Assembly (NCBI GenBank): GCA_922989275.2
Contig: OV277867.1
Coordinates: forward strand, 5,022,001-5,086,000
Origin: Gari tellinella
Lineage: Eukaryota > Mollusca > Bivalvia > Cardiida > Psammobiidae
DNA: 64,000 nucleotides
Direction of reading: 5' to 3'
Below the pieces are notes generated by a model. The model was not told the DNA's origin, ran no database searches, and saw only the letters and a list, made by a program, of their open reading frames with translations. Shown here piece after piece: positions 1,211-63,850 of this stretch. The translations under genes were made by a program, and so were the position numbers. Numbering within the stretch: the first letter of the stretch is position 1; every line of letters starts with the position of its first letter.

Positions 1211-1460
1211 TACAGTGGAGAATCTGTTATTCTTTCACAATAAACGCGTTTACGCTTAAACTATTATTTGCAGTGCAAACAGTTTGGAGCCAGATCAGAC
1301 GCCGGGTAACCCGGCGTCTGATCAGGCTCCAAACTGTTTGCCACCAAGATAAACATGAATTATCAGAATTGTCCAAAAGTTGTACTTTTCAACGTTTTAG
1401 TGTTTTGCGTTTGCGTACGTTTGCGTTTAAACGGGAAAGAATAACGTTTTCTCCACTGTA
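1211..1460. mobile_element. MITE family A, copy 1
   Basis: About 250 bp bounded by TA dinucleotides. Termini are CAGTGGAGAATCTGTTATTC and its inverse, ending TTTCTCCACTG. CAGT termini with TA flanks fit a Tc1/mariner-type non-autonomous element. The centre is a type I palindromic core (AAACAGTTTGGAGCC, GATCAGACGCCGGG and mirror). One side carries CAATAAACGCGTTTACG, the other GCGTTTGCGTACGTTTGCG, which gives the element an orientation. Confidence 0.85.
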
Positions 1461-2675: not shown

Positions 2676-2855
2676 TACAGTGGAGAATATGTTATTCTTT
2701 CCCGTTTAAACGCAAACGAAACGCAAAGTACTAAAACGTAGAAAAGTACAACTTTTGGACAATTCTGATAATACATGTTTATATTGGTGGCAAAGAGTTT
2801 GGAGCCAGATCAGACGCCGGGATACCCGGCGTCTGATCTGGCTCCAAACTGTTTG
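2676..2855. mobile_element. MITE family A, copy 2, right end lost
   Basis: The left terminus is TACAGTGGAGAATATGTTATTC, followed by the type I core with GGAGCCAGATCAGACGCCGGG. The sequence breaks off just after the second core arm and runs into family B at about 2861. Confidence 0.75.
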
Positions 2856-2860
2856 TAAAA

Positions 2861-3048
2861 GTCTGCATTGGTAGTGTCGTCTGCTATAATTAAAAAGTCA
2901 GATTTAGGGCTTTTCGGATTAAAGAAATATTAATACGAGTGTCAAACAGTTTGGATCCTGATCAGACGCCGCGTGACGCGGCGTCTGATCAGGATCCAAA
3001 CTGTTTGCAAAGTCGCAGTTTTGTCGCCGTTGGCAGTGAAAGAGTTAA
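2861..3048. mobile_element. MITE family B copy next to a splice donor
   Basis: It contains GCATTGGTAGTGTCGTCTGC, then a perfect type I palindrome (CAAACAGTTTGGATCC, TGATCAGACGCCGCG and mirror), then GCAGTGAAAGAGTTAA. Family B is flanked by TTAA with CCCTTTCAC-like ends. Its right end lies 25 bp inside the intron from the donor of the exon at 3074-3278. The left end is missing. Confidence 0.7.
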
Positions 3049-3073
3049 ATAGTCGAGAAGATGAAAGCAATAC

Positions 3074-3278: not shown

Positions 3279-3373
3279 CTTCAGCGATATAGATATACGA
3301 AATAAAAAATTAAAAACCCTTCTGATCAGCACCTTTACATGGATATTTAGATTGTAGAAATGTCACTAATAAT

Positions 3374-3830: not shown

Positions 3831-3983
3831 AATGACAGTCATTTTCTCCACATAATTGCACAGCAATTGAGCTTATTTCGATTAAAAACGGGAAATAATA
3901 ATATTGTTCCCACTGTGTGTTCGTTCATGAATTTTGCAACCCGATCAGACGCCATACTCAGAGCGGTTGATTAGTCTTAAAAC

Positions 3984-4237
3984 AGGGCTGCCATAAGTTG
4001 ACATGAAAAATCCTAAGATTTCCAAATTTGCATTTCTCAAGTGCGATTTTACGAATCGTACCTTTACCCCATAGTATTTTTCTTGTTTTGTTGACATGCG
4101 AATACTTAAAGCAGGCTGTAAGTAAAGCAGAATGCGCCTTAGGGCGCATTCTGCTTTACTTTCAGTCTGCTTTAAGCTACCATAACCTGGGAAAAAATCC
4201 GGAGATTTAGGAAAAATCCGTCGAAATGGCAGCCCTG
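3984..4237. mobile_element. hAT-like MITE family E, copy 1
   Basis: Ends are CAGGGCTGCCATAAGTTGAC and ATGGCAGCCCTG. Internal sub-terminal blocks AAAAATCCTAAGATTTCC and AAATCCGGAGATTTAGG are partly inverted. The centre holds a type II palindrome (CTTAAAGCAGGCTGTAAG, GCAGAATGCGCC and mirror) that also occurs in family D. A clear target duplication is not visible here, but copy 3 at 42623-42876 shows an 8-bp one. Confidence 0.75.
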
Positions 4238-5124: not shown

Positions 5125-5299
5125 TACAGTCGAAATTTCGAACTCGCACAAATATTTCTCAAGTAGAAATTCGATAAGTCGATCGCTTAAATCGAACACA
5201 TGCGTATTTCAATGTTAGAAAGTGACTAAACCACGTTTTTAGTTCGAAACATGGGTATGTGCGAACTAACTCGAGTTCAAATTATAGGGTTTGATTGTA
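5125..5299. mobile_element. MITE family J, copy 1
   Basis: Bounded by TACAGTCGAAATTTCGAAC and GGGTTTGATTGTA. The interior is an imperfect palindrome around ATTTCAATGTTAG and CTAAACCACG. A better preserved copy lies at 51970-52165. Confidence 0.6.
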
Positions 5300-8081: not shown

Positions 8082-8447
8082 TACAGTGTTCCCTCCCTAC
8101 AACGGCCCTCCCAACAACGACTCTCTCCTAACAACGGCCCTTGTCGCAGTAACCTAAACAGGAAAAAAATTACGTCCAAAATATTCACGCCTACAACGTT
8201 GTCTGCTTAAAATTGTTGTCTGCTGTTTTTCTCAAAATTACACAATGGACATCTTGAAAGAAAAAAAACTAAGTTACTAAGTGACAAACAGCTTGAATCC
8301 TGATCAGACGCCGCGTTACGCGGCGTCTGATATGGATTCAAGCTATTTGAAGATGTAAGCAAATTCCCTCCCTATAACGACTCCCTCCGAACAACGCACA
8401 CAGTTTTAGTCTCCAAGTGGGTGCCGTTGCAGAGAGGGAGTGCTGTA
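8082..8447. mobile_element. MITE family C, copy 1
   Basis: Ends TACAGTGTTCCCTCCCTACA and GAGAGGGAGTGCTGTA, flanked by TA. Internal CCCTCCTAACAACG-like runs lie on both sides. The type I core is AAACAGCTTGAATCC, TGATCAGACGCCGCG and mirror. Confidence 0.8.
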
Positions 8448-9510
8448 GGGGTATATTGTATATGCAGTATACATGAAGATGTATCAAGTACGTGAAGAAG
8501 TCCAATTTGTTGTATAAACACTCATTTAGAACTACATGTAATGTACCATTTCGAAAAGATAAAGGTAAATTGGTGTGCAGACCGTACCATAACGGGGTAC
8601 CAAAATGTTTCATTAAAGATATGTTATTACCGATGACGTATAAATGAAAGATTATTACGATGTCAATTTATCTATAACAAAAAGTACAAAAAGACCTGTA
8701 TAACATAATATTGTGTGAATAAAACATGTATGGCGCAACTAAACGAAATAAAGAGAATTATACGATTTTAATAAACTCAAAACTTCCTTTTTTTTTAACT
8801 GAGATGCAAAAAAATGTATCCATACATCAAAATATGGCACAACTAGACACAGGCTACGTTTTACAGACGATACGGAAATATCACTGTAATTTCTTCTCAG
8901 TTTCAACATGTTTTAGGTATTGTAATGTTTATGTATTTTAAAATCAGTCATCGGAATATAAAACCCCTAGAGGGTGGCTTTCCAAAGAAAGAGAAGAAAC
9001 TTTTCACAAAGTCTCTTATTCAGTTTTGGGTTGTTTTCTGGGCTGAGTTTGTTGTAATAGGTTTTTTCGCGAACATTCCACATCTTTTCTGTCTACGAGA
9101 GTGCTTCGAAAGGTAGTGCTACTTGATCCATAACTTCAATATCATACGTGAAAATTCATATGTGGTATATCATTTTAAAGAACAATTATTTGAGTACACG
9201 ATGGTATAGTTAAGAAATAATCTATGGTCTACCGTTATTAATCGGATAATTAACAGCTATTGTGAGTTGTGATGCGAAGGAATTGGCCTCGAAGCAACCT
9301 CGTATTTCTAATTGTTCCGAAAATCATTTCAACGGTTTGTATACATCTCGATCGGTAACAGTGTACGATTTTAAGTAGGTATTTAACTTAGATAAAAATG
9401 CTCAATGTATGCAAACACTTTGTCCCCGTTACAGAACATGTGCGCCAAAACTTTCAATCTGACATTAATCATCAGTTTTATTTGTCATCAAAGAATGGCT
9501 CTAATCTGCT

Positions 9511-9752
9511 TTAACCCTTTGAACCCTATTCCCTCATATAGGCTTCCTTTTCAAACAGTATTCGTGTGAAAAGTGCACTTGTCCTATGCAAACAGTGAAT
9601 ACCCAAACCGGAGGGCTCCTTGCGGAGCCCTCTGATCTGGGTCTTCACCGTTTGGCATGATGCAAAACATTGACAAAAACAACCCATAAAGTCAGAAATA
9701 GACTAGACTAAAATGGCAACTGGAATTGTCCATTTGAAGTTTCAGCTGCACT
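9511..9752. mobile_element. MITE family F, copy 1 (right end lost)
   Basis: Starts TTAACCCTTTGAACCCTATT. The core is type I with a different variable part: GCAAACAGTGAATACCC, GAGGGCTCC and a GGAGCCCTC mirror. The family right part GGAATTGTCCATTTGAAG is followed by loss of the GGGTTAA end. Confidence 0.7.
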
Positions 9753-9929
9753 CGTTTACAAGCAGACGAATCTCTTGGATTTTTAATGTTTTCTACGCTG
9801 TAGATCTACATTGTTTAGTTTATAGATAATTGTTGATTGTATATTTTCCGTTTAAAATGGCTCAAATAAAAGAATAGTTTATCTTGCCAAGAAACAAACT
9901 CGACAATGAACTGACAGCTTCCCGACATC

Positions 9930-14711: not shown

Positions 14712-15826
14712 TCAACCAAAATAAATAGTCATAAGTTCTACTATATCACCGCGGCACATAGGGCAGTCCTTAAGTGTGGGTGAGCAGTCTCTGCACGACA
14801 CGGCGTGTCTACACGGTAAAATCACCTGCTGCACCGGCTTCTCCATACATATTTTACACAACCACTCGTCGTTCAAGTCATCAATACTGTCAGATTCCGT
14901 CGTATTTGATGCCGGAGTAACCTTGATAGCCGGTGTCGGAGTAACCTTCTTGGCTGGTGTCGTTGTACTCCTGGTGGCTGGTGTTGGAGAACCCCTGACA
15001 CCTGGTGTTTCGTTTACGTTAAGCGTTTGTTTCGGAGTACCTGTATGTGGGATTTTCAAATTATTGCGTTCATTAGACAACGTCGGCGTTGGAGTCGGGC
15101 TGATAGCGTATGGAGTGGTAAAATCACCAGTTTCGTGATATAGTGTCAGCGCTGGTGCTGGGGTTTTGGGGTATGGATTATTAAAGCCTGTGGTGTCGCG
15201 AAATGACGCTGTGTTTGATGCCGCCTGGGTATCTCGATTTGGTGTGTTCAAATACGTATGTTCGTCTATTGGGACTGGCTTTGGCGTCGGAGTACCAGGA
15301 TTTGGTATAGTCACATCACCAGTTTCGTGATATAGCGTCAGTCTTGGTGCTGGCGTACTTGGAATAGGGTTGTTTAAACCTGTAGTGTCACGAAAAGACG
15401 ATTGATTTGATGCCGGAGTACTTTGGTTTGGAGTGTTCAAATAATTACGTTCGTTAATTGGCCCCGGCGTTGGTGCAGGAGGACCGGAGTTTGGGGTGGT
15501 CACGTCACCAGTTTCGTGATATAACGTCAGTGTTGGCGCCGGGGTACTTGGGTATGGGATATTCGAACCTGTGCTTTCGTGAAATGGCGTCGGATTTGAT
15601 GATGAAGTACCTGGATGGAGCGTGTTCAGTTCATTACGTTCGTTAATTGGATCCGGCCTTGGAACAGGAGTGCCGGGTATCGGAGTGGTAAAATCATTGG
15701 TCTCGTGGTATAACGTCAGTCTTGGTGCAGGAGTACTTGGGTGTGGGTGGTTCAATTGATCATTTCCTCCATGATCTAAGGTCGGCCTCGGTGCAGGAGT
15801 AGCACGGGAAGCTCTTTTTGGTATAC
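14712..15826 (-). CDS. RING-finger protein copy A, last exon
   Basis: Minus-strand exon of 1115 bp ending in TGA at 14714-14712. The acceptor TATCCCTTGTTTAG lies at 15827-15840, and the exon starts with two bases finishing a codon, as in copy B. The first 300 or so residues are Pro/Thr/Asn-rich and made of four tandem repeats (separate entry), then a TPA-rich linker. The C-terminal 48 residues form a C3HC4 RING (C-K-I-C, P-C-R-H-A-V-S-C, C-P-M-C) ending M-T-I-Y-F-G. The spacing is identical to IAP-type RINGs, so ubiquitin transfer is the likely activity. Copy B lacks the whole repeat region. The phase here does not match the donor of the only upstream copy A exon found (18032), so an exon is missing from this model or the gene is damaged. 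A nested MITE begins 22 bp upstream of the acceptor. Confidence 0.8.
15000..15719 (-). repeat. In-frame 189-bp tandem repeat within the RING exon
   Basis: Four units of 63, 63, 64 and about 50 residues each begin L-T-L-Y-H-E-T. They continue with T-T-P, a P-x-P-x-P run, I-N-E-R-N, L-N-T-P, F-R-D-T-T-G and N-N-P-x-P-S-T-P-A-P. The units have drifted in sequence but kept the reading frame, apart from a one-codon insertion in unit 3. A further half unit precedes the first. The composition suggests a disordered spacer ahead of the RING. Confidence 0.85.
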
Positions 15827-15848
15827 CTAAACAAGGGATATAGGCAGG

Positions 15849-16268
15849 TACAGTAAAACTTCTCTATGACGACCATTCAATTGTGTTGAATATTAGGTGT
15901 TTAAAGTAAGGTGACTGCTTTAAGCAACGTGACAGAAAAGCAAAAAGCTCCATATACAGTAAAACCTCTCTATTACGACCACTAATTTGTGTTAATTATT
16001 AGGTGTTTCTGACTGGTGACTGCTTAAAGCAAGGTGACAGTAAGACAGAAAGCTCCTGTATGGGCTTTCTGTTTTACTGTCACCTTGCTTTAAGCTGTTA
16101 CCTGTATTCAATACACTCAATTAGCCTTCTTTTTAGTGTCCGTAATAGAGAGGTTTTACTGTATAGGAGATTTCTGATTTACTGTCACATTGATATAAGC
16201 TGTCACCTGTCTTTCATGCAATGAATTAGCCTTCTATTACTCGGTTGCTATACAGAGGTTTTACTGTA
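15849..16268. mobile_element. MITE family O, copy 2, interrupted by copy 3
   Basis: Outer element with TACAGTAAAACTTCTCTATG at the left and CAGAGGTTTTACTGTA at the right. Its type II core is split at the tip (AAAAGCTCCATA / TAGGAG) by a second, complete family O element. Confidence 0.8.
15955..16163. mobile_element. MITE family O, copy 3, nested in copy 2
   Basis: Ends TACAGTAAAACCTCTCTATT and AGAGAGGTTTTACTGTA. The near-perfect type II core is GCTTAAAGCAAGGTGACAG, GACAGAAAGCTCCTGT and mirror. It is inserted at a TA in the middle of the outer element's palindrome. Confidence 0.85.
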
Positions 16269-17656: not shown

Positions 17657-17725
17657 TGGCAAACAGTGCAGACCCTGATCAGACTTCTCCATCTGGAGAA
17701 GTCTGATCAGGGTCTGCACTGTTTT
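17657..17725. repeat. Stand-alone type I palindromic core
   Basis: GCAAACAGTGCAGACCC, TGATCAGACTTCTCC and a perfect mirror. The tip block CTTCTCC differs from every other core in the window. No convincing transposon ends are visible around it. Confidence 0.75.
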
Positions 17726-23005: not shown

Positions 23006-23356
23006 TACAGCGCTCCCTCTCTACAACGACATCCAATGGGAGACAACAAATATGTGCGTTGTTCGGAGGGAGTCGTTATAGGGAGGGAACTTGGTTAACA
23101 GTTGCAAACAGCTGGAATCCAGATCAGACGCCGCGTTACGCGGCGTCTCATCTGGATGCAAGCTGTTTTTCATTTGTCATTATGTTTTTTCTCTCAAAAT
23201 GTCTTTTATGTAAGAAAAAACAGCAGACAACAATTTTAGGTAGATGATGATGCATCAGTGCAAGCATAAAACATAATTTTCGTGGGAACAGCGGTGAATG
23301 TTGTTGTAAGGAGGGAGTCGTTGTTGGGAGGGCCGTTGTAGAGAGGGAACGCTGTA
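23006..23356. mobile_element. MITE family C, copy 2
   Basis: TACAGCGCTCCCTCTCTACA to GAGAGGGAACGCTGTA, reverse relative to copy 1. Core AAACAGCTGGAATCC, AGATCAGACGCCGCG and mirror. Confidence 0.8.
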
Positions 23357-24120: not shown

Positions 24121-24490
24121 TACAGTGTTCCCTCCCTACAATGGCCCTCTCAACAACGACTCCCTCCTTACAACGACCATTACCGCAGTTCCCTAAACAT
24201 GACAGTTATGTCTAACGCTTTTACTGCTGTAATATCGTCTGCTTAAAGTTGTCGTCTGCTGTTTTCTTTTTTTCAAAGTTACGTATTGGACATTTTGGCA
24301 CAAAAAAAAACTTTATAGACGAGTGACAAACAGCTTGAATCCAGATCAGACGCCGCGTTACGCGGCGTCTGATCTGGATTCAAGCTGTTTGCAAATGTAA
24401 ACCAAATTCCCTCCCTATAACGACTCCCTCCGAACAAGGCACACAAGTGTTGTCTGCCATCGGGTGTCGTTGTAGAGAGGGAGCGCTGTA
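24121..24490. mobile_element. MITE family C, copy 3
   Basis: TACAGTGTTCCCTCCCTACA to GAGAGGGAGCGCTGTA. Perfect core: AAACAGCTTGAATCC, AGATCAGACGCCGCGTTACG and mirror. Confidence 0.85.
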
Positions 24491-25312
24491 TTTACAAAGT
24501 CGACGTTTCCATGTCCGGTATTATGCTCTGTTGTGCGTTTCTTATTATTATTAAGTCGAAAATGAATGTTCTACGTTTATGCATTTTACCGCAAACGAAT
24601 CTATAGACTTTTATATGTTTTTTCTTTCAATGTATAAATCAGAAGATTCAAAGTTTATAGAAAGGTTTAATCTACACACTGACTAGTCCTTACAGCACTT
24701 AACCACCCTTTTCTCTCTCAATGACGTCATAACGCGCATTTTAGACAGCTTTGATTCTGAGCAGACGCCGCGTAACGCGGCGTCTGATCAGGTTCAAAAT
24801 TGTTCGCCACTTGTTTTGAAAATAAGGTCAGTTATACTGCCTAAAAACTAACCTTGAAACGATGTGGCAGACAATAATATTGAAGCAGACGACAATAAAG
24901 CGAACATTTTGATCATGAAAGGATTAAGCCTGATTTGCAAACAATTTGGATTCTGACTAAACGTCAAGTAACTTGACGTCTGATCAAGATCCTGGCTATT
25001 TCAGACTCATGTCGACATTTCCATAGTCAAAATCGCTGAGATGTAAGTGTATTGTATATAAGATTATACAATATTGCTGGAAGTGACCAGACTAAAGTAG
25101 TAGATCAACGCCCCCTTATGTAATTGGGCCAGTGAGGGTCAACAATGGTACTCTACGTAGAAAGATCGGACATTCTCGTCAACTGCTCGGACATAAATCG
25201 GGACGGCTATTCAGTTGACGATAATGACCGATTTACCTAATGTAGAGTATCAATACAGACCGAAATTGGCCCGATCTCGTTACGGTTGTTCTATCTTAAT
25301 TACGTTTGAATT
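24491..25312. other. Spacer with family B variant and a loose core
   Basis: 24699-24928 is a family B variant (ACCACCCTTTTCTCTCTCAATG, ATTCTGAGCAGACGCCGCG core, TTTGATCATGAAAGG). 24940-25005 is another type I core with tip ACGTCAAGTAACTTGACGT. Elsewhere nothing recognised. Confidence 0.5.
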
Positions 25313-25512
25313 AACCCCCAACTGCCCTGACGTCATCAATGTTAAACAATTGTCGTATGCTTTTATTTTTCAATTTTTTTTTTAGGTATTTTGACTTAAG
25401 AAATATTGAAATAAGTGTCAAATAGTTTGGATCCTGATCAGACGCCGCGTTACGCGGCGTCTGATCAGGATCCAAAATATTTACAAATAACTATTGTTCT
25501 CGGGATAAGGGT
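25313..25512. mobile_element. Family B-like MITE
   Basis: TTAACCCCCAACTGCCCTGACG, AATTGTCGTATGCTTTTA, ATTTTGACTTAAGAAATATTG, then a perfect core GTTTGGATCC, TGATCAGACGCCGCGTTACG and mirror. Confidence 0.65.
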
Positions 25513-26937: not shown

Positions 26938-27189
26938 TTAACCCTTTACCCAATAGAAGCGCCTTTTAGCGGATATGATTTATTCATCCGCTTAAGAAAA
27001 TAGTTCCAATTTAATCAGTAATGAATATGTATTATATGGAATATTTTCTATATTATAGCACATGATAGCTTAAAGCAGGCTGAAAGTAAAGCAGAATGCG
27101 CCCTAAGGCGCATTCTGCTTTACTTTCAACCTGCTTTAAGTAGTCACCTATCTTAAGTACTAGAAATAGGCTATCAGGTAAAGGGTTAA
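26938..27189. mobile_element. MITE family D, copy 4 (reverse)
   Basis: TTAACCCTTTACCCAATAGAA at the left and GGTAAAGGGTTAA at the right; type II palindrome with AATGCGCCCTAAGGCGCATT tip. One of the best preserved copies. Confidence 0.85.
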
Positions 27190-29778: not shown

Positions 29779-30027
29779 TACAGTGGAGAAAACGTTATTC
29801 TTTCCCAATAAACACGTTTACGCTAAAACTATTTTTCCATTGCAAACAGTTTGGAGCCAGATCAGACGCCGGGTAACCCGGCGTCTGATCAGGCTCCAAA
29901 CTGTTTGCCACTCAGATCAACATGAATAGTCAAAATTGTCGAAAGGTTGTCTTTTTCTATGTTTTAGTGCAATGCGTTTGCGTACGTTTGCGTTTAAACG
30001 GGAAAGATTAACGTTTTATCCACTGTA
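29779..30027. mobile_element. MITE family A, copy 13
   Basis: TACAGTGGAGAAAACGTTAT to ACGTTTTATCCACTGTA, perfect core with GGGTAACCC tip. Confidence 0.85.
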
Positions 30028-31790: not shown

Positions 31791-32320
31791 ATACAGTAAA
31801 ACACCTCTACCAGGCCCCGAGGTTATAAAACTTAAAACGAACTCTGTGCTCAAAACTCAGAAATTTTCTCAGCTCAGAATATTTGGGCAAACATTTTATT
31901 TTTTAACTAGTATTTCTAAACATAATTATTCTGTAATAATGTATCCAAATTAGGTTACAAAACTCAAATTAAACGTGTTTTGTAAAAATTAGAGCCTGTT
32001 ATCGAAACTGAGTTTTGAGCACAGAGTTCGTTTTAAGTTTTATAACCTCGGGGCCAGGGGTCCGTTTTACTAAACAACTTACGCACAATTTTTGCGTAAG
32101 TCAAAATTTTAAATTTTAATTTATATTTTTTATTATCACTTGCTACAAACAGCAAATAGCCAGATCAGAGGACGCGCTTTTAGCGCGTCCTCTGATCTGG
32201 CTATTTGCTGTTTGCAAACGTTTATGATCGAAAAATAAGAGTTAAACGATTTTGACTTACGCAAAAATTTTGCGTAAGTTGTTTAGTAAAACGGCCCCCA
32301 GGACCACTGCATAGTTCTAA
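31791..32320. mobile_element. Family O remnant containing two inserted inverted-repeat elements
   Basis: TACAGTAAAACACCTCTACCAG on the left and GGACCACTGC on the right are halves of a family O end. Between them are element G' (31813-32056; ends GGCCCCGAGGTTATAAAAC and mirror) and element K (32057-32300; ends GGGGTCCGTTTTACTAAAC and mirror). CAG triplets sit at each junction. Confidence 0.7.
32057..32300. mobile_element. MITE family K with a type I core
   Basis: Sub-terminal GCGTAAGTCAAAATTTT on both sides. The centre is a perfect palindrome ACAAACAGCAAATAGCC, AGATCAGAGGACGCGC and mirror: the type I framework with unique variable blocks. Confidence 0.8.
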
Positions 32321-34049
32321 GACTGATTGATTTAGGCCGTACCATTACAAAATCAGCCGTATTGCATTGCAACATTGTACAGACCAATCACCGTTGCCAA
32401 CTCGGGCTCTTTATCTGAGTTTGGTCTACACTGCCAAATACACTACATAATCTACAGCTACGTATATGCTTTAGATGCATGTGGGTGTTAAACAGTCAAT
32501 GACAGTCGCCGTACATGTATCTTTGACGCGGCGGCTGGACTTGATCTACACTGTCTGTAGTGCAATAAATCAGGTTTCTCATGACACAGTTGAGTTTGAA
32601 AAATAAAATTGGCTGCTTAAAGCAAATTGAAAGTTATAAATAATCCTTCAGGAGCTTTCTGTTTTATTTTCTCTTTGCTACCAGTGTTAATCACTTTATA
32701 TTTAACACACTTTATAGGTCGTAAAAGAGGGGTGTGCTGTAGTTATTCAAGTGTGCATCGGACCATGTTTTATAAACAATTTAATTAAAAAAGTCACAGA
32801 TTTAAACTAAAATATAATTTATATATGACTTAGCAAAGAGTCTAGATCCTGACGGGACTCGGGTACATCGCGATAACGCGGCGTCTGTCAGGACCAAATT
32901 ATAGGGCTGCCATTTCTCCGTATCTTTTCGAAAATCTTGGGATTTTACTTAATATCGCCGTACCTACGATTTTTTTCTCTCGAAATCTTCAGAATTTATT
33001 GAGATAAAGTTTACTCTGCTATTTGGTGTATGTTTTATAATGATGAATCATGGTTGTTATGATGTTATGTTTCGTTTTGAAAAGATGGTTTTGAACAAAA
33101 AAGCATACTAAAAGCGAGATTCCTAAAGTCGCGCTTGCCAGAAATGGAAATTTTGGAAATTTTAGGATTTTGAATGAGCTGTTTGCTGAATCAATTGTTT
33201 GACTCTCTATGTAAATATGTCTTCAGTCAAAGTGACTTGGATATAAATTTTAAAATATACCTTTTATGAAAAAAGATCCATGTCCAAGGATGCAGGCCAT
33301 ATTTACAGGATTGTCGTTCTTGCTCACTTTAGTATATCAGACGTAAACCATTATCTCCCTTTGTACACGAGATCAATTATCGATTTGTTAGGCATACTAT
33401 CGGGAATCGGTTGATCATCTTAGCCTTGATAAGAAATCACAAATGCTTCGTTATCATTCGGCTGCCTCCGGAACACTGGTTCCTGACTCCTTTTTATTCT
33501 CAGCGGGACCTCTGAAAAGCCATTTGTGTTTATCTGCTGATTAAATTGTTACTAAACATTCGCGTTCTACATCAATTATACCCTGACCAGCATTATCGAT
33601 CGAATATTTCACTAGTATATTACTCGTACATCCACACTTAACAAACGATAGTATGAATTATGATCAGACTAAGTATTTTGTCTATACGTCAATTTGCAAA
33701 CTGTTAACCAATCGGATCAAAACTAATTGATAGCTAAAATGGTAAAAAACAAAATTAAAATTCAATTAAAACATACATTTTTCGATTTTCTTTTTAAGGA
33801 GTGATTTACACATATAAGATTAATATGATGGAAATGCGTAAATATGTTTCGAATAAGATATATTTGTATGAAAAACACAGAAAAATGATATTTTCTGTTC
33901 TATTGCAAACAGTTTGGATCAAGATCAGACCCCCAACAATTATGTGTCGGAGATTACGTAGATTTTAAGTTACATTAGATCTAAAATCGGTAAATATATG
34001 GCGGCTTTTAATCTTAGATCAGCGACTGAACTTTCCCGCCGTCTACCGA
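32302..34049. other. Spacer with decayed MITEs
   Basis: 32560-32745 is a worn family O copy (GCTTAAAGCAAATTGAAAG, CAGGAGCTTTCTG). 32830-32895 is a ruined type I core. 32904-33185 resembles family E (AGGGCTGCCATTTCTCC and GGAAATTTTGGAAATTTTAGG). From 33190 onward I see nothing but AT-rich sequence and a single core arm at 33905. Confidence 0.45.
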
Positions 34050-40426: not shown

Positions 40427-40805
40427 TACATTATTTTTGAATATATTAATTTAAATGCATACTTTTTAACAACCCCCCTGTCGTTCTGAACCAAAATCTC
40501 GCTAGATCTACATCTTTTCGAGATTTATTTTTGGGTTACTAACCTCTAACAAGCTACTGCTAATTGGTAATGAGATTTTTAGCTTAACGGGTTATCCTTA
40601 GGCCATTAGGCATACATAATTATTCAAGCGTATGTTCAATGTTAAATTGTTAAAGGTATGTATGCATATATTGGCTATTAACAATTTCGCAAAATTATTT
40701 AAAACCTTTTTTTAACTTATAAACACATTTTTAAAATCGGGTTAATTCACTTCTATATATACTCACGATGTACTGACACCATGTCGTTATTACTTCGCAT
40801 GACTT
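40427..40805. other. Spacer, no feature recognised
   Basis: AT-rich with no open frame of note and no palindrome. Confidence 0.4.
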
Positions 40806-41052
40806 CCATAAGTTGACATGAAAAATCCTAAGATTTCCAAATTTGCATTTTTCAAGTGCGAATTTACGAATCGTACCTTTATCCTATAGCCTGTTTCTAG
40901 TTTAGTTGCCACGTGACTACTTAAAGCAGACTGGAAGTAAAGCAGAATGCGCCTTATGGCGCATTCTGTTTTACTTTCAGCCTGCTTTAAGCTACCATGT
41001 TCTAGAAAAAAATACGAAGATTTAGGAAAAATCCGGATAAATGGCAGCCCTG
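40806..41052. mobile_element. hAT-like MITE family E, copy 2
   Basis: CCATAAGTTGACATGAAAAAT at the left (first bases of the end mutated), type II core with AATGCGCCTTATGGCGCATT tip, and ATGGCAGCCCTG at the right. ACTTCG occurs on both flanks, a possible damaged target duplication. Confidence 0.7.
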
Positions 41053-41214
41053 ACTTCGTGATATACTGTAATATTTTATGAGTTGTGTTTTTATGTGTTT
41101 GTAAATATGCTGGTGTAGCCCTTACCTGTAAATTAATATAATAGAGCTATGTATTACAGACAACAGTTTCAATGCAGACGATATTATATGGTAGTTAAAA
41201 GGTTGACAACATCA

Positions 41215-42622: not shown

Positions 42623-42876
42623 CAGGCCTGCCATAAGTTGATAAAAAATCCTAAGATTTCAACTTTTTCCATTTTTCAAGCCCGATTTTCCTGATTATAC
42701 CTCTAACCCATAGTCTGTTTCTAGTTTTTTAGACACGTGATGCTTAAATCAGGTTGAAAGTAAAGCAGAATGCGCCTTAAGGCGCATTCTGCTTTACTTT
42801 CAGCCTGTTTTAAGTTTACATCTGTTGGAATAAAAATCCGAATATTTCGGAAAAATCCGGAGAAATGGCAGCCCTG
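42623..42876. mobile_element. hAT-like MITE family E, copy 3, inside the LINE
   Basis: CAGGCCTGCCATAAGTTG to ATGGCAGCCCTG with a type II core. The flanks ATGTTCAG (42615-42622) and ATGTTGTT (42877-42884) are a worn 8-bp target duplication: the RT frame (…D-E-Q-H then G-F-V-P-G-S) is restored when element plus one flank copy are removed. Confidence 0.85.
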
Positions 42877-43276
42877 ATGTTGTTCATCACAAAAAAGTTC
42901 ATTATCTGTCATATGGGCCATCACTGCTTTTCTAATAATGGATTCCAGGATCTTGCAAAGAACTGAAGTCAGGCTGACTGGTCTGTAATTGCCTGGTGAA
43001 CCCATATCTCCCTTTTTAAAGATTGGCGTGACTTGGCCCTGTTTCCATTGAAATGGTAACTCTCCTGACTCCAATGATTTGGAAAATATAATCCTTAAAG
43101 GCGTTGCAATGCATGGAGCTATTTCCTTCAGGACCCTTAGATGAAAGCCGTCTGGTCCTGCAGACTTGCTGACTTTCAAGCTATGTAGCTGTTTTAATAT
43201 GATATAGAATGCCATCCTCAGATATACTCAGACCTGTCAACTCTGCTCGTAAACACACTGCAAAAGAATTTATTTA

Positions 43277-49200: not shown

Positions 49201-52200
49201 TAAGCCGATTAACGATAGTAGCTTCTGATCGTATCTGGATCTACACGACCTTTCAAGTTCATCATAATCAATATGAATATACCATCTATCTATTATCTTT
49301 TTTTTAACTGTATGCGACCTTGAATTAAGCTTGCCGTTACATTTACTGACGAAGTGTGAAATGTCCGTCCAAGTTACAGCGGTTGAGTGAAAGAGCCAAT
49401 CAGCGTTTAGGCCTTTGTGACGTCACAAAATGGATAAAAATCGAGGGTTCCGAATGATAGCTTTGCCAATATGGCGGCGCCCGTTCCAATTAGCGATAGC
49501 TTACCTGTATGCAGTAAATCGATCTTTTTCGTACCTTATCGATGAGTAATAATTGCAGGACCTTCATGAATGTTGCTTTTAGGATAAAATCTAGGATCTA
49601 AGACCATATTGTCATCAGCTGTCCGTTTTCCTTTAATTGCCAATTTGCAAAGGCTGACAGGCACTCCATCAACAATATCCAATCCCTATAGTATACTATG
49701 ACTACTCATTACAATCATCTATGATCTAGAAGAGACGATTCAAATGATTCAAACAATTGTCATTGTGGAGGTATAGCCTTAACTCTTTGATTGACCCTAG
49801 TCACGCATATATGCATCATTTGCCAACAGCGTACATTCAATTGTTGTCACGTGACACATGATCTTGCGAAATCCCACAACCTCCGTGAGAACTCCGACTC
49901 TTGCCTATTCAACTCCATTGAGTTGCGATTCCGTGTATGTATAATTCCGTGATTTACTCATTCATCCTGAAATTTCAAATGTAAATGTCCAGTTTCCAAT
50001 TAAGTCTATGTCCAAGCCTAGAAGGCTCCAGATAAGAGGGAGTAAACTAAACAAATCCTACATTTTCTCACTCATTTTAGCACCAAATCCTATGGTGTAA
50101 CACTGTAACTACTCATTAGAATCGTCTCGAAGAGACAATTCTAATGAGTAGTGACACCATCGGGTTTAAATCAGAAATAAAGATTTTAGTTTTTGAAAAA
50201 CTCCCCTTATCTGGAGCCCTGCTATGTCCATTTTTGGGTTCATTTAGGGATGATTAAAATTACAATTCATTGCCAATTAGAAACAGTGCAGACCCTGATC
50301 AGATGCCTACTTCAAGGGCCCTTAGATGATAGATCTTGGTCTACACAGTTTGCAAAGGACAAGGGTACTGTTTATTGGAACACGGTTTGTGAAGGACTTG
50401 TATACAAGTCACTCTAGAGCATGAGTTCACTGAGTTAACCCATTAATTACCACATAGACTGTTTCTACAGCGTTTTTTTTCCTTCTTTGAACGGTACCGG
50501 GGAACGGACCCGTTCCCAATTGGAGACGGACCCTTCCCAATCAAAAGAAATCAATTATCGGACCTGTTCCCAATCAAAATAAACATATTTGCCAATTATC
50601 AATTACATTTTCCCTTTAAATCATAGCAAACCATCCATATTCCAACTTATCTTTTGCTACAATGAATGTAAACAAAGTTACGCAACTCCATTGACATTTT
50701 TTGGAGTATGTATAAAACAATACCAGTGATTACGGCAGAATTTCGGAAACGGTCTGAGCCAAGATTTATACATGCCCCTTCATCGAGACTGGTTAATGTT
50801 GCGTGATCGCAAAATCCGCTGAAATTGATAAGAGTTTACAAACCCAGTCTGACTCTGTTTACCATCATTTATAAAATAGAAAACCTACAATTAAAGAGTA
50901 CTGCAATTAAAACAATCATGAGCCATAATTCAAAGTATTACAGAATTGTTTTAAACAAGACGATAATGAAAAACTTGAATCTAGAGCACTGCATGCCTTT
51001 AACACTCGCGAGCGTGATTGGCAGTATCCAGAGATAGATAAGATAAGATTTTGGATTTTACCAAGTCATCAACTCTGTCTCGGCCGCAACAGCGTCTACT
51101 GTGAGTAACACACACAGCGTATATTAGTTTCTACACCATGTTTACCATCATAAACAGTTCTAACGGTTTAGTAACTTAAATTCCCAATTTCTGCGTTGTC
51201 ATCATTTCAAAACTCATTTTTCCCAATTTGACTTGAAAAATTCCCAATCTGAGGGGTACCGGACCCGTTCCCAATTGGGTGAAAAAAAAACGCTGTTCTA
51301 ACATATTAAAGATAAGTGCATGACCACTTAAAGCAGGTTGAAAGTAAAGCAGAATGCACCTTAAGGCGCATTCTGCTTTACTTTCAGCCAGCTTCTAGCT
51401 ACCATCTGCTAGAATAAAGAAAATATTTCTTATGATACATATGAATTCATAACTGTATAAATTGGAACTAATTCTTTCAATGGAGGAATACATTAGAGGC
51501 GTAAAAAGGCGTATTTATGGTGTAATGGGTTAACCTTTGCCCTATTGCCTGTTTCTAGTTTTGTAGACAGGTAACCACTTAGAGCAAATTGAAAGTAAAG
51601 CAGAATGAGCATTTACTTTCAGCCTGCTCTAAGCTGCCATCTATGAGGATATGGAAAATATTTCTTAAGGTGCATATTCATGATGACTGTATAAATTTAC
51701 TTCAGTAGAGGAATATATTAAAGTCGTATTTACGGTGTCATAGGGAGGTTAAAGGAAAACGTTGTAAATGGTCTCAGAGTTTATTGAGTGTTTCTTCTGC
51801 AGGTTTGTTGGAGGCGAGCTGAATACCTGCTATAATGCTGTGGATAGACATGTTGACGAGGGAAATGGGGGACAAATTGCCATAATACACGACAGCCCAG
51901 TCAGCAAGGAGATCAGAAAAATCACCTATCATGAACTGTGGGAGAAAGTAAGACTGTTGTAGACGTTTGTACAGTCGAACTTAGATATCTCGAACTCGCT
52001 TAAATCGAACTATCCGATAGTTCGACACATGAACTGCATTATTTCATGCTCGGTTAGGTCGAACATACCCCTATTTCAAAGTTAAAACGTGGCTAAGCCA
52101 CAGTTTAACTTTGAAATAGGGGTATGTTCGATTAAACGAGTTCGAGATATCTAAGTTTGATTGTATTCTGTACCTAACCCATTACCCCTTAGCTTTTTAG

Positions 52201-55200
52201 CTCACCTGAGCTAACTCAGGGTGAGCTTTTGCAATCCTTGAATGTCCGGCGTGCGTCGTCTGTCATCAACAATTTTAGTGTTTACACTCTAAAGGTCACA
52301 ATATTTATCCAATCTTTCTCAAATTGCTCAGATTGTATATTACCATAAGAGTTCGGATGAGTTCGATTATGGTTTAAATCGGACCAATAGGTCAGGAGTT
52401 ATCTGCCTTTGAATTGCTGAAAATGCCATATTTAATAGTGTTTACACTCTAGAGGCCACAAAATTTATCCAATATTTCTCAAACTTGCCCAGATTGTATA
52501 TTACTATAAGTGTTCGGATACTATAAGTGTTGGGATGAGTTCGATTATGGTTGAAATTGGACCAATAGGTCAAGAGTTACATGTATCTACCTATAAGTTG
52601 CTGAAAATGCCATATTTAACAGTGTTTACACTCTAGAGGCCACACTTTTTATCAAGTCTATCTCAAACTTGCTCAGATTGTATATGGCTACAAGAGTTCG
52701 AATGAGTTCAATTATGGTTGAAATCAGACTTATAGGTCGAGAGTTATCTACCTTTGAATTGCTGAAAATGTCATATTTAACGGTGTTTACACTCTAGAGG
52801 CCACAATATTTATCCAATCTATCTCAAACTTGCTCAGATTGTATATGACAATAAGAGTTCTAATAAGTGTGGTTTTGGTTGAAATTGGACAAATAGGTCA
52901 AGAGTAATTTGCCCTTGAATTGCTGAAAATGTCATATCTAACAGCGTTAGCACTTTTGCAACTACAGTTTTCAATTGATTTTGATCATACTTGCACACAA
53001 AGTATATAGCTGTAAGTTCTCAATGGAGTGCATTTATTGTTGAAATCTAATCATTGTGGCAATAGTTATCTGCCCTTGATATACTTTGAAATGCTAGAAA
53101 AGGCTTCATTTTAGTATTGTTTAGGCTCTAGTTATCTACCCTTGATGTACTCTACAATACTAGAAGTATGAGGTTGTATTCAAAAATTGTTTGTAAACAT
53201 GCTATACTACAAATTTGAATGGATTTAGATTAAAACGGGTGAAACAGAAAGGTAAAGCTATCAGGCTTCAGTACAACAGGTGAGCGATATCAGGGCCTTC
53301 AGGCCCTCTTGTTTCTAGTGTTGAAGACAGGTGACTACTTATAGCAGATTGAAAAGTAAAGCAGAATTTGCCTTAAGGTACATTGTGCTATAGGTACTGT
53401 CGGCCTGTTTTAACCCTTTCCCACATAGCATATCTCTAGTATTGAATATAGGTGTCCACTTAAAGCAGTTTGAAAGTAAAGCAGAATGCGCTTTAAGCGC
53501 ATTCTGCTTTACTTTAAGCCTGCTTTAAGCTATCATCTGCTAGAATATAGAAAATATTTTGTATTATACATATTTTTTAATGTATAAATTGGAACTATTT
53601 TCTTCAGGGCAAGAATAAACTGAATGCGCTAAAAGGCGCTTCTATGGGGGAAAGGGTTAAACTACCATTAGTTAGAATTATGGAAACTATTTTTTTATGC
53701 TACATATTCATGACTGTATAAAGTCACTTTAAAGTGGAACTAATTTTCTTTCGATGGAGTAATTAATAAAAGGCATAAAAAGATCTGCATAATGATTGGT
53801 TAAATAATCACATGTCATAAGAAAGTCCTGTCAATGTTTCTTCTGAGAGTGTCTTCTTTAGACAAGTTTCAGCGATTGATGTCATGACTTTGAATTTGAG
53901 TAATGATTTCAGGTGACTCTGTTTGCGGGTGTGTTAGAGAAGTATGGTGTGGAGCGGGGCGACAGGGTGCTCATCTATATGCCCATGATACCTGAGGCTG
54001 TGATTGCCATGTTGGCTGCGTCCAGGCTGGGTGCCATCCACTCACTTGTGTTTGGTGGGTTTGCTTCTAGGGAGCTGTCTACTAGAATTGATCATGCAAA
54101 GGTATTGGCTAGAATCATTCCATGTAAAACTGGCATACAACATTAACTCTATTCATGCTTGAAACAAATCACGTCTCCTACAGTTATTGTAAGTGTCTAA
54201 AAACAGAATTTTCAAATTTCTTTTTAAAACGGATTCAGAGTGTCAAAATCCATAGCTTATTTCCATTATTGAAAACAGATAATTACAGGTTTAATGTAAA
54301 GCAGAATGCGCTATAAAGGGCTTTCTGCTTTACTTTCAGCCTGCTTTAAGCTACCATTTGCTAGAATATTGAAAATATTTCTTATGATACATATCCATGA
54401 CTGTATGAATTGGAACAATTTTCTTCAGTGGAGGAATGAATTAAAGATGTTAAAAATGCATATCTTTAGAGTAAAGGTTTCAATCTGTATTTACTGTTAT
54501 AAATTTTTCCCATTCTTTTCTCAGCCCAAAGTTATTGTAAGTGCCAACTGTGGAATAGAGCCTGGCAGGACTGTCAAGTATAAGCCACTACTAGATGGCG
54601 CTCTAGACCTGATCAGCTTCAAACCAAAGAAGTGTATTATCTACAACAGACCAGGGGTACGTAGTCTTAGCTAACCCTCTACCGAATAGCTTGTTTCTAG
54701 TTTTGAAGACAAGTGGCTAATGAACTCTTTGAACCCTAGTCACGCATATATGCATCATTTGCAAACAGCCTACCTGTGAGGAGTACACTTGTCCTATGCA
54801 AACAGTGTTGACCCTGATCAGAGGGCTCCTTTAGGAGCCCTCTGATCAGGGTCTACACTGTTTGTCATTTTGACATACAGTAGAACTTCGATGTGTCGAT
54901 GTTGAAGGGACCATCATAAAAAACTCGACACATCGAAGCCTCGACTCATGTTTACCTGATGTTTCCTCGATTTTTTTTCTCAAATATACTCGATCTCCAT
55001 AAAGCCGACATGTCCGTATGTTACCTGTTGATATTGATTATTTCCAATTAAAAACATTCAAACGGAATTATGTCTGCCTCGTATCGCATCCAAACTGGAT
55101 GCATATTTACTAATTTTACCAAAAACCAATCTTAAAGATGTACGTTAGGCGAAAATACGTTTCCCGTAACTCGATTTTCAGAAAAAAACAACGGTATGGA

Positions 55201-58200
55201 CGGATGTCGCTTTTTATCTGCACACCGGTTCTTGTACCCATTCCAGCATATATATTCACGCTGGAACCAGATTAAGGGGAAACCCTTTTTAGCTCACCTG
55301 GCACGTAGTGCCAAGGTGAGCTTTTAGGATCGCTGGATGTCCGTCGTCCGTCGTCTGTCCATCCGTCCACAATTGTTCGTTAACTCTCTACCAGGTTCAA
55401 ATCTCATTGGATCTTGATGAAACTTGGTCACAATGTTTGCCTTAATGAAATCTAGGTCAAGTTCGAATGTGGGTCATGTCCGGTCAAAAACTAGATCACT
55501 AGGTCAAATTATCGAAAAACATTGTTAACACTCTAGAGGCTACAAATTTCATTGGATCATCATGAAACTTCATCAATATTATTGCCCCAATGAAATCTAG
55601 GCCAAGTTCGAATGTGGGTCATGTCCGGTCAAAAACTAGGTCACTAGGTCAAATCTTCGAAAAACCTTGTTAACACTCTAGAGACTACAAATTTCATTGG
55701 ATCTTCATGAAACTTCATCAAAATGTTTGCCTCAATGAAATCTAGGCCAAGTTCGAATGTGGGTCATGTCCGGTCAAAAACTAGGTCACTAGGTCAAATC
55801 TTCGAAAAACCTTGTTAACACTCTAGAGGCTACAAATTTCATTTGATCTTCATGAAACTTCATCAATATGATTGCCTTAATGAAATCTAGGCCATGTTCG
55901 AATGTGGGTCATGTCCGGTCAAAAACTAGGTCACTAGGTCAAATCTTCGAAAAACCTTGTTAACACTCTAGAGACTACAAATTTCATTGGATCTTCATGA
56001 AACTTGATCAAAATGTTTGCCTCAATGAAATCTAGGTCAAGTTCGAATGTAGGTCATGTCTGGTCAAAAACTAGGTCACTAGGTCAAATTATCGAAAAAC
56101 CTTGTTAACACTCTTTAGAGACTACAAAATTCATTGAATCTTCATGAAACTTGAACAAAATGTTTGTCTCATTGAAATCGAGGTCAAGTTAGAAATAGGG
56201 TCATGTCTGGTCAAAAACTAGGTCACACGGTGTACATGGTTACCAGGTGAGCGATTTAGGGCCATAGTGGCCCTTGTCTTAAAATAGTAGCAATTTACCG
56301 TTGATGCTACACATTTCTGGATGGGTTCCGCGTGAGTCATTCTTTGTCTATTACACACACATTCTCTTCCGGCATAAAAACATTGACCAAACTACGCATA
56401 TGCGTTAACGTTCGGTTTAAATTGACTTCACACAAAACGAAATAAGGGTGCTATGATTAAGTCCGTGACAAATAAAATATGGAAAAGAGTTGATGAATCA
56501 AGGAATACACGGGGCCTTTGACACATTCAGAAGGTGTTGGCCTGTTTGTCCTGGATAATTGGGTAGTCAGCTCATTCTGATTCACGACAATCAATCAAGT
56601 AAAGATGGTCACGGAGGTGTGAAAAACTCGACACACGAAATGACGGTCAGTCAATTTTTGTACAGTCGAACATCGACACATGTGTAATGAATTTTGAGTG
56701 AAACAGTACATACGGACCGAGAAAAAAAGTCGATATAGCGAAAACCTCGACTTATAAAAACTCGAGTCATACGTAGGTTTTTAATAAGATTATATAGGGA
56801 GAAAAGTTGGGACTTTAAGAAAAGATCGACACATCGAGAAACTCGACTCTTCGAAGTTCGACACATCGAAGTTCTACTGTATATTGTAAAAATCAACCCT
56901 AAAATGTCAAAAATGGACTACACTAAATTGAAACCTAGAATTGTCCATTTGAGGTTTCAGGGAGGAAAGGGTTAATATAGGTTTAAAGTCTAGAGGAATG
57001 TGCCTTTAAACCTTCTGCATACATTTTTAAAATCCAACCTGCTTTTAGTGACCATTTGTGAAGATATAGGAATACAGCTTATGGTGTGTAACTATTTTCG
57101 TCAGAGGATGCATAAATTAAAGGGTTAAAAAGGGTTTCTAGAAGCCTTAGATAAATAAATATACATTTATTTGCAATATAAGTGTTTTGGATATCTATTA
57201 TTTTACCAATGTTCTGTTGGATTCCATCTAATGATCGAAGTATACATGTATTTCCAGAAATAGAATACATGTGACAAACAGTTCTGGGGCCCGTTTTATG
57301 AAACTTTGTACGACAAAAATGGTCGTAAGTCAGATTCTAAAATAATTAATTATTATTTATTTCTCCATCTAATCCTGTCTTGTGACATCTCTTTGGAATC
57401 GTCTTGAACAGACGATTCCAAAGAGATGTCACAAGACAGGATTAGATGAAGAAATAATAAAAATTAGATGTATTTTAATGTTTTGACTTACGACTGTTTT
57501 GTCGTACAACATTTCATAAAACTGGCCCCATATCAGTATTAGGCACCAAGTTACTTGGCATATGACATGGATCCAAACTGTTTGAAAATGCTATCTAGTT
57601 CACCATAAGCACATGTTGTTAGACTTAACTGACTATTAGATTGTTTTTTTATGCATCTTTAAGTTTGAGTTTGCTCCATTGAGGAAGGATATTGACCTGG
57701 ACTTTGAGTTTGAGATGGCCCACTCACAGCCCACTGACTGTGTCCCTGTTCCTGCCACAGACCCACTGTATCTCCTTTACACGTCGGGAACCACTGGAAT
57801 GCCCAAGGTAAAATATGCGAACTGTCAGCCCAACAAACAGTATGTTACAGCAGTAAACTCATTTGCCCCTGAAACTTTTAATACACGGTTCCATTCTCCA
57901 AATAAGTTACGGTTGATTTTAACCCTTTACCTGATAGCTTATTTCTAGTATTGAAGATATATGACTACTTAAAGCAGGTTGAAAGTAAAGCAGAATGCGC
58001 CTTGATGCTTTTCTTTCAGTCTGCTTTAAGCTATCAAGTGTTTGAATATAGAAACTATTCCCAATAATATATATTCATGACTGATTAAATTGGAACTATT
58101 TTCTTCAGCGGAGTAATATATCATATTCGCTAAAAGGCACTTCTATGGGGTAAAGGGTTAACAATATATTTCAAAATGACAAACAGTGTAGACCCTGATC

Positions 58201-61200
58201 AGAGGGCTCCTTAAGGAGCCCTCTGATCAGGGTCTACACTGTTTGCATAGGACAAATGTAATCCCCACAATTACACTGTTTTGAATGACAAGTATACTCA
58301 TCACTAGGGTTGAATGTGTTATGAATCAGCATTAGGATCTGTAAGTTAACCCATTACCTCATGTCCAGATTCTTGTTTTCTCAGAACAGAAGATAATTTT
58401 TTAACCCTTTCCTCCATGTCAAACCACTTATATCCAACGGTGCTTGAGGAAGGTCACTGCTTAAAGCAAGGTGAAAGTAAAGCATTGGACAGGATTAGAT
58501 TATATAATTATGCTGAGTGGTAGAGTTATATGCGTTCTTATTTTAATTTTTATTTTCTGTTCTCAGGCAGTTGTGCGGCCCAGTGGGGGACATGCTGTTG
58601 TTCTGAAATGGTCTATGTGGAATATATATGGTATCAGGCCCAAAGAGGTGCGTTAACTATTATTCTAACACACCTCGCTCACACCCCTATATAAGCGAAG
58701 AAGGACCGTCTTGGTGTTCGAATTTTCAGTAGAACACTCACGCGCTAAACGTTCTAACGTGACGTCATGTGGCGTGGAAAATGCGTACGCCAAGAAATGT
58801 AGCGCTGTTACTTCGGTGCAATTTAAGGTTAAATTATGTGTTAGAATCGAAATAATAAATTAATACCAGTGTTCTATCTAACAATCGAACACGGATAGTA
58901 GTTGAGATGCTTGTAATTAAATCACTCGGCCTAAAGGCCTCGTGATTAAATTACTACGCATCTCAACTCCTACCAGTGTTCAATTGCACGATAGAACACT
59001 GGTATGAATTTATTATTTCTTAACTGTAGCCAGAAAAGGGGAGTACAGTAAAACCTCTCTATTAGGACCACTAAAACAAATGCTAATTGGCTGTATTAAA
59101 GGCAGGTGACAGCTTAAAACAAGGTGACAGTAAAACAGAAAGTTCCTAAAGGAGCTTTCTGTTTTACTGCCACCTTGCTTTAAGCAGTTAGCTGTTGTAA
59201 ACGGCTTATAATAAACACAATTAAGTGCCCGCAATAGAGAGGTTTGACTGTATTTCAAAAACTGAAATCTTTATTTTTGTTTTAAACTCTATGGTGTCAC
59301 TACTCCTTTGAATCTTCTCTTTGAGACGATTCTAATGAGTAGTAACACCATATAATTTGGTGCTGCAATGAGTAAGAAACTGTATGATTTGTTCAGTTTC
59401 CCCTCTCTTATCTGGAGCCCTGTGTACCTTACCATTTTTCAACCAAGAGCTTTTTGTTAGCTCTTCTCCCGATGAATATCCTTTTTTATAAAATTTTACC
59501 CTGTATGGATGTTTATCATCTGAACTTTAACCATTATCATCAGTGCTCCAGATAAGAGACAGAGTGAACTGAACTAATCCAACATTTTTTCACTCATTTT
59601 AGCACCAAATCCTATTGTGTCACTACTCATTAGAATCGTCTCTTTGAGACGATTCTAATGAGTAGTGACACCATAGGGTTTAAAGCAGAAATAAAGATTT
59701 TAGTTTCTGAATTTCTCCCCTTATCTGGAGCCCTGATCATTATTACATTGGTTAATAAAATAGAGAAAAGCTTCCCCACATGTCATACAGATCCAATAAG
59801 AGAAATAGTTCAGGCTCATGTCCTTTAGGAGCTTTCTTGATCTGCCAACAATTATTATCATTACAAAAAATTGGAGCCTGATAAGACCCCAGGTAACCCT
59901 CTGTCTGATCAGGCTCTAAACTCTTTGCAAATCAGACAAAAATAAATGGTAAGAATTTTCAAAGAGTTTTCATATTCTACATTTCATTGCATTGTGTTTG
60001 TGTGGGGTTTTATTTAAATTGGTAAGAATAACGTTTTCCTATTATATCAGTAGTTTGAATAATGAGGTTTTGGTGTACAGTGATACCTCTCTATTACGAC
60101 AACTAAAATAAGGCTAATTGATCGTATGAAAAACAGGTGGTTGCTTAAAGCAAGGTGGAAGTAAAACAGGAAGCTTTTATTTTCCCCTTGCTTTAAGCAA
60201 CCACCTGCCTTAAACACACAATGATAATATTAACACCATTTAGTGGTCTTTCTAGAGAGCTTAACTTTACTGTATTGGGTCCAAGGTTATAAAGCTTTTA
60301 AGTTGAGTCTAAAGTAGTTCTGAAGCATTTGATTGGTCAGATGTGAGCCTAGGCTCACATCTGACCAATCAAATGCTTCAGAACAATAACAGACTCAGTT
60401 TCAAAAGCTTTATAACCTTGGACCTTGGTATATTTTGTTTCAGGTGTGGTGGTCTGCCTCTGATTTAGGCTGGGTTGTTGGCCACTCCTATATTGCCTAC
60501 GCTCCATTGCTCAATTGTAATACCACAGTAATATTTGAGGTAATTTAAAGTACATGCACAGCGTTCCCTCCCTACAACGACCCTCCCAACAACAACTCCC
60601 TCCTTACACCAGCCCTTGTCTTAGTTCCCTAAACAGGAAATTTTTGTCTAACGATTTTACTGCCGTAATATTGTCTGCTTAAAAGTTGTTGTCTGCTGTT
60701 TTTCTCAAAGTTACATTGAACATTCTGACAAAAGAAGCCCAACTTATTGACGAGTGACAAACAGCTTGAATCCAGATCAGACGCCGCGTTACGCGGCGTC
60801 TGATCTGGATTCAAGCTGTTTGCAAATGTAAACCAATTTCCCTCCCTACAACAACTCCCTCCGAACAACGCACACATTGTTTGTCTCCCATGTGGTGTTG
60901 TGGTAGAGAGGGAGCACTGTACAAGAAATAGATCTGTCTACTCATTTCCATGCAGTGTTTAAACACACAGGATTTGAATATGATTTTAAATCTGATTGTC
61001 ACTTGAAATAAGTTCAAGCCCAGGGTCCATGCTTATAAATCGTTTGAGTTTAGTTTGTCATCTTTCTGAAGCGTTCAGTTAATCAGATTTGAGCACCAAT
61101 CAAAGTTTGGGAACAATCTGAGACTCTCAAATGCTTTATATGCATGGTGCCTTAAATAGATAAGTCTTAGAAAAATGCTCATGAATCTGAGAGGAGATTG

Positions 61201-63850: not shown

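Follow-up and report, generated by a model that had tools for sequence, protein, structure and literature searches.

Palindromic centres common to MITE families with different ends in a 64-kb window of Gari tellinella DNA: probable nested capture of TTAA elements

Transposons are classed by their ends, and MITEs are non-autonomous DNA transposons. Coral CMITEs and a MITE of Lucina pectinata are close precedents, as far as the cited parts of the two papers go, for the MITE families described here. The CMITEs are TTAA MITEs whose families have different terminal inverted repeats (TIRs) and a conserved internal region of ~75 bp, and CMITE-IN is a new element formed by CMITE insertion (Wang et al. 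2010, PMC2872659). The left end of CMITE family VI (CCCTTTCACTGCCA) resembles the end of family B below; however, the CMITE families are all TTAA and ~100 bp long, whereas B and D here are ~200-245 bp long, and the passages cited describe neither a palindrome nor sharing across TA, CAGGGC and GGGG ends, the likeness being one of description only (PMC2872659). Lucina pectinata repeat 1 is MITE-like, 210 bp long, with inverted repeats that are imperfect and 30 bp long and a centre of 77 bp that is 96% self-complementary; it is like the present families, by description, in its long central palindrome, but no target duplication was found for it, the cited passages do not report its centre behind different ends, and it has a short segment in common with repeat 2 (PMC4732748). 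The Tc1/mariner MITE MER6, which captured and amplified a V-SINE domain, is similar in having amplified a captured piece of another element, although its cargo is a SINE domain and not the hairpin centre of a MITE (PMC6887750, in the part cited). Pearl-type modular MITEs and satellite DNA of bivalves have modules common to differently organised elements, but these are described in the cited part of PMC5139131 as tandem-repeat modules and not as central hairpins. Shared centres behind different ends are not described in the cited parts of PMC12479628, PMC3212995 and PMC12628747, and our searches of the open-licence literature turned up no report of a single hairpin centre occurring behind TTAA, TA and further end types. 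The opinion of the first-pass annotation of this DNA that no system like it had been described was nevertheless too strong, since the CMITEs share an internal region across families that differ in their TIRs (PMC2872659, as cited).

The stretch analysed here, called the window below, is 64 kb long, eukaryotic and dense with short non-coding repeats. An acetyl-CoA synthetase N-terminal exon (45911-46282) and a RING-finger stretch (14712-15863) have Pfam matches above cut-off, and a reverse-transcriptase fragment (42721-43227) has one below it; the RING finger is C-terminal in a 383-codon open frame that overlaps a 189-bp tandem repeat. Other tandem arrays lie at 55398-56226 (145-bp unit, 5.7 copies, 92% matches) and 52341-52948 (161-bp unit). 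No transposase was found in the six window ORFs scanned, and an ORF of family A used as protein query had no match in public collections. A search for near-perfect palindromes in the window gave 61 at a score of at least 14, against 0 in each of 10 dinucleotide-preserving shuffles, and 55 at a score of at least 18; the set of 61 takes in kinds other than the three types of core described below. Further palindromic features are a ~1.33-kb element (43286-44611) whose ~100-bp inverted ends hold two 61-bp palindromes, a perfect 40-bp palindrome (CAGAGACAGTGTATAG..., 47311-47350) between the near-identical 8-bp repeats CATCCAGT and CACCCAGT, a palindromic family Q (TTCTGAAGCATTTGATTGGTCAGA) with three loci (60277-60424, 17147-17268 and 61023-61151), and a TA element P (CAGTCGAACTTAGATATCTCGAACTC, 51972-52163) with a different central palindrome of its own and a second, P-like locus at 5170-5285.

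The MITE families of the window have a common layout: a terminal inverted repeat, a left arm, a palindromic core of ~65-110 bp, a right arm and a terminal inverted repeat, with target sites, where readable, of TA, TTAA or short duplications. With core profiles (E<=1e-4) we located 54 loci of type I, 24 of type II and 7 of type III in the 64 kb, many of them decayed; the recognised cores total 5331 of the 64000 bp and are found behind TTAA, TA, CAGGGC and GGGGCCCG ends. Type I is carried by families A, B, C, F and K, type II by D, O and E, and type III by L and M, as the first-pass annotation had assigned them, and its principal observation, that the same centres stand behind different transposon end types, holds through A, C, O, E, K and L/M. 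All copy numbers are those of one 64-kb window, and several families have three copies or fewer. Exact-match pattern scans for type I (viral_contigs and genome_contigs) and type II (viral_contigs) gave no match, which carries little weight as these collections are mainly viral and prokaryotic. Representative elements are listed in Table 1.

Table 1. Elements of the MITE families in the 64-kb window, with their cores and surroundings
Feature	Position	Strand	Remarks
A element (TA|CAGTGGAG..., 26-bp TIR)	29781..30025	+	type I core 29843-29907
Other full A copies	starts 1213, 4795, 10468(-), 16806, 17778(-), 18273, 20883, 22405, 23727, 27357(-), 28610(-)
B element (CCCTTTCACYGCC end type)	25310..25512	+	left arm, type I core 25419-25482, right arm
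Other B copies	near 12908, 14000, 18648(-), 24705(-), 25951(-), 26175, 10232, 22107
A/B chimera	2678..3050	+	A right arm and A core fused directly to truncated B left arm and B core
C element (CAGYGYTCCCTC...)	24123..24488	+	TA both sides; B left arm and type I core 24327-24391; inside core of a B element
C element	60559..60919	+	type I core 60758-60822; left CA, right TA
C element	23008..23354	-	TA both sides; type I core 23105-23168
C element	8084..8445	+	TA both sides; type I core 8285-8349
D element	53414..53656	+	TTAA both sides; type II core 53459-53529; inserted at TTAA, core edge of another D
D element	26942..27185	-	TTAA both sides; type II core 27069-27140
D element	57923..58157	+	TTAA both sides; adjoins F-type core 58180-58245
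E element (CAGGGCTGCCAT...ATGGCAGCCCTG)	3983..4237	+	5-bp TAAAA repeats; D left arm and type II core 4105-4176; in core of a decayed A
E element	40803..41053	+	type II core 40920-40991
E element	42623..42880	+	type II core 42743-42814
E0, candidate uncaptured form of E	32903..33171	-	matches to outer sequences of E at each side, 83% (54 bp) and 89% (44 bp)
F, left arm (CTCTTTGAACCC) with type I core	54725..54864	+	core 54799-54864, tip GGGCTCC
F copy	9510..9760	+	type I core 9589-9654; bounds approximate
K: L-family ends and arms, type I core	32057..32299	+	core 32146-32214
L element (GGGGCCCG)	350..593	+	type III core ~431-512; flanks match decayed A core weakly (13 bits)
L element	57286..57529	-	type III core 57366-57448; inside a type I core
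M element (CAGTGCTCCAGATAAG)	59541..59735	+	5-bp ATCAT repeats; type III core 59606-59683
O element (CAGTAAAACCTCTCTATTACG)	15957..16161	+	TA both sides; type II core 16023-16094; at TA in another O's palindrome loop (15851-15952 and 16164-16266)
O element	59046..59250	-	TA both sides; type II core 59113-59184

The target site of families B, D and F alike is TTAA, and their ends read CCCTTT or CTCTTT; the sharing of cores among these three therefore crosses no superfamily. The TTAA is duplicated on both sides of the three D copies, the only ones scored on two sides, and TTAA or a close variant can be read at one or both ends of several B and F copies. The terminal motif CC[C/T]T takes the form CCCTTT at the ends of D and also in copies of B, and the F copy at 54725, for which no F right arm was found beyond the core, starts with CTCTTT, one base off this motif. 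In A, C and O, which are candidate Tc1/mariner or pogo MITEs, TA flanks both sides of 10 of the 12 A copies as bounded (the right side of 16806 is TG, and the start of 22405 was set one base off), of three of the four bounded C copies (the exception is 60559) and of the O copies at 15957 and 59046, the O copies at 60078 and 2134 lacking it as bounded. An O-like locus at 45701-45747 has its stem split by a different 25-bp palindrome between 11-bp repeats (TGCTTTAAGCA). The ends of C and O may be related, since the O-arm profile matches the right end of C in two of five copies (E 0.025; score 12.0, top decoy 6.4).

Families E and M had been called hAT-like in the first-pass annotation. Elements of the hAT superfamily are defined by an 8-bp target duplication, whereas the best flanking repeats here are the 5-bp TAAAA of the E element at 3983-4237 and the 5-bp ATCAT of the M element at 59541-59735, and the remaining copies have no clean flanking repeat at their ends as bounded; we have thus dropped this assignment, the likeness being in terminal sequence only. 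Family K, listed there as a family of its own, does have the type I core, but it is a single copy with the ends and arms of family L. Because the K and L arms are homologous, the two belong to a single end-family, whose core is of type I in K and of type III in L.

The above shows that cores are shared behind different ends, but does the sharing extend past the core? The arms outside the palindromes were compared in three ways: their consensuses were aligned and scored against shuffles, arm profiles were run with decoys as controls, and alignments were anchored where the core ends (180 comparisons). The left arms of B and C are homologous (z 10.7, nhmmer E 4e-9), as are those of D and E (z 7.9, E 0.002, in all three E copies), and in the anchored alignments the right arms are similar near the core only (D/E z* 4.7, B/C z* 3.0). 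Under strict alignment positions 83-230 of E correspond to 9-152 of D, the block opening at the second base of the CCCTTT that ends D, and positions 97-267 of C correspond to 11-180 of B, starting no more than ~10 bp from B's end; on the right side the sharing stops soon past the core, after ~5 bp in C and ~16-28 bp in E. Judged from these alignments, what moved in C and E was not the hairpin alone but a sizeable part of a TTAA element taken from one side: its left arm almost complete, its core and a few bases further on. The D left arm resembles both O arms weakly over ~16-34 bp (best 9.1 bits, top decoy 6.8), and for L and M beyond the palindrome there is a hint of likeness (anchored z* 4.0; the profile score of 4.5 bits against 4.9 for the decoy is not significant). 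The A arms have no significant homology to those of B or C (anchored z* 2.4 with the B left arm and 2.6 with C, ranks 19 and 14 of the 180; none by profile), and the A-B arm homology that had been suspected by eye is below significance in all three comparisons. An anchored score of 4.1 between the left arm of A and the right arm of M may be chance among 180 comparisons, and the F arms have no clear match to other family arms. In A and K, then, the core is the only part that appears clearly shared.

The E0 locus has the outer sequences of E on both sides, and neither the D profiles nor the type II core profile has any match in it at E<=10. On the left its homology to E ends no more than ~20 bp from the point where the D terminus starts in E. 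This arrangement fits the entry of a D element into an E-type element followed by a deletion, as we would infer, of D's right arm and of part of the original interior; since the interior of E0 is also absent from E, more than a plain insertion took place. A possible coreless relative of A (35239-35519) was too decayed for use.

We consider nested capture to be the most probable explanation of these families, and would put its probability at roughly 70%: TTAA MITEs inserted in other MITEs, the far arm was lost, and the composite was amplified by the outer transposase. TTAA elements of the B, D and F types (with piggyBac-like ends), bearing a near-perfect central hairpin, would have entered MITEs that depend on other transposases (TA, CAGGGC, GGGG), the far arm of the newcomer would have been lost through a deletion from near the hairpin base, and the transposase of the outer element would then have amplified the composite, spreading the old centre behind new ends, about once for each receiving family. 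This reading is based on the shared blocks of C and E and their edges, the coreless relative of E, the agreement of cores with families, and the nested insertions (the last two below). The deletion, the transposases and the donor of the L and M core are presumed, and A, O, K (and M) would presumably have followed the same route. A shares little but the core with the others, and its capture is thus suggested by the core by itself; that of K is suggested by one copy, and no TTAA donor for the type III core was seen in the 64-kb window.

How well do the cores agree with the families that carry them? A type I core tree was made from 34 cores out of the 54 loci and a type II tree from 21 out of 24, both rooted at their midpoints; the nearest-neighbour count used 31 type I cores, with K and two unassigned cores left out. 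Each of the 31 assigned type I cores is closest to a core of its own family. Families A (99/99) and C (93/94) each form one clade among the B cores, while F, K and the two unassigned cores make up the other side of the tree (99/97), with K among F on a long branch, and the six type I groups require 5 changes on the tree, the minimum possible. In the type II tree O is one clade (99/99) beside D and E, and E lies among D (3 changes, minimum 2). AU tests do not reject a single clade for B (p 0.18), D (p 0.09) or F (p 0.24), so the trees do not prove the direction of donation. The incongruence between core tree and family that the first-pass annotation had proposed to look for was mostly absent, and found in one case: the cores of E do not form one clade (AU p 0.034), whereas its left arms do (99/97). 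This discordance hints at core exchange, and may rest on one or two sites. One capture per receiving family is the simplest history for these trees.

Nested insertions are present in the window itself. By their joined flanks, six of the 29 bounded elements lie inside (or at the edge of) another element's core: C 24123, L 57286, O 15957, D 53414, E 3983 and, weakly (13 bits), L 350, with the hosts given in Table 1; two others, A 28610 and M 50024, were inserted in arms of F. Six of 29 compares with 2.4 expected from core length (one-sided binomial p 0.03), in a count that was made after the fact and in which cores are easier to recognise than arms. These numbers hint that the hairpin core is a favoured landing site, which would feed further captures; they leave our estimates for the explanations discussed here unchanged.

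Alternatively, the hairpin itself might be mobile and insert in MITEs, or anywhere, independently of ends. The same cores behind several end types, the little that A and K share beyond the core, and the 12 of 54 type I loci with no adjacent family arm (every one at 32 bits or less) would agree with this; one of the 12 is a perfect 64-bp type I palindrome (17660-17724, tip CTTCTCC) without recognised family arms, which is either a further family or a lone hairpin. Against it, all 31 strong type I cores (at least 45 bits) adjoin family arms, 26 on both sides and 5 on one, and all 17 strong type II and all 6 strong type III cores have them on both sides, counts that are partly so by construction, as the profiles were built from many of the same copies. 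At the core edges of 10 family consensuses direct repeats of at least 3 bp are absent (M has a 2-bp match), the cores are family-specific, and homology in C and E continues past the core into one arm. We regard a mobile hairpin as most improbable; something did carry centres between end types, as the first-pass annotation had concluded, but the one-sided blocks of C and E and the lack of core-edge repeats give no support to its other suggestion, that the hairpin itself was the moving unit. It is likewise very unlikely that the cores were inherited from one ancestral element whose ends diverged past recognition. The similar TIRs of C and O and the TTAA and CCCTTT/CTCTTT ends of B, D and F, which could be old relatives, would suit such an ancestry; however, target-site types differ among the families, K and L have the same arms with different cores, and E0 has E's outer sequences without the core. 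The first-pass annotation had named continuous homology from core to ends as the observation that would favour inheritance, and in C, E and K/L the outer ends differ, with homology stopping at the block edges in C and E, so that common ancestry is largely refuted for these families.

The centres might instead have been swapped in place, by template switching or gene conversion between hairpins, and K (L arms with a different core), the discordant core and arm trees of E and the both-arm changes between family cores are each what a swap could give. We hold this to be very unlikely too, as the 31 assigned cores are all nearest to their own family, and the shared blocks of C and E include donor arms, which a swap does not need. 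The both-arm changes bear on the hairpin in another way. Among individual copies (43 cores, three E cores being included in the D group) one-arm changes outnumber paired both-arm changes by 117 to 20, whereas the family consensus cores in four chosen pairs (B-A, B-C, B-F and D-O) differ by 19 both-arm changes and 2 one-arm changes, the Fisher p of this contrast being indicative only because sites and copies are not independent; the 15 type I consensus pairs have at most one unpaired site each. Since the consensus cores differ almost only by paired changes, the copies that amplify carry near-perfect hairpins. Quasipalindrome correction, cited in the part of PMC6649704 used here, would yield paired changes in both arms. 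The symmetry would be kept either by such arm-to-arm copying or by poorer amplification of imperfect hairpins, both of which agree with the data of the window. A further reading, which we think unlikely, is that the hairpin is a portable cis-acting module that raises MITE amplification whatever the transposase, captured hairpins being kept, held symmetrical and thus common to unrelated superfamilies; the contrast of 19:2 and 20:117 is expected under it, though arm-to-arm copying would also give these ratios.

Under nested capture, the inside of one transposon class would have been taken up by others, with the donor arm, the recipient ends and a coreless relative all within one 64-kb window. 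This would be a concrete route for the origin of new MITE families, and it means that internal similarity can mislead repeat annotation. The families also make it possible to test if a MITE multiplies better for having a perfect hairpin at its centre.
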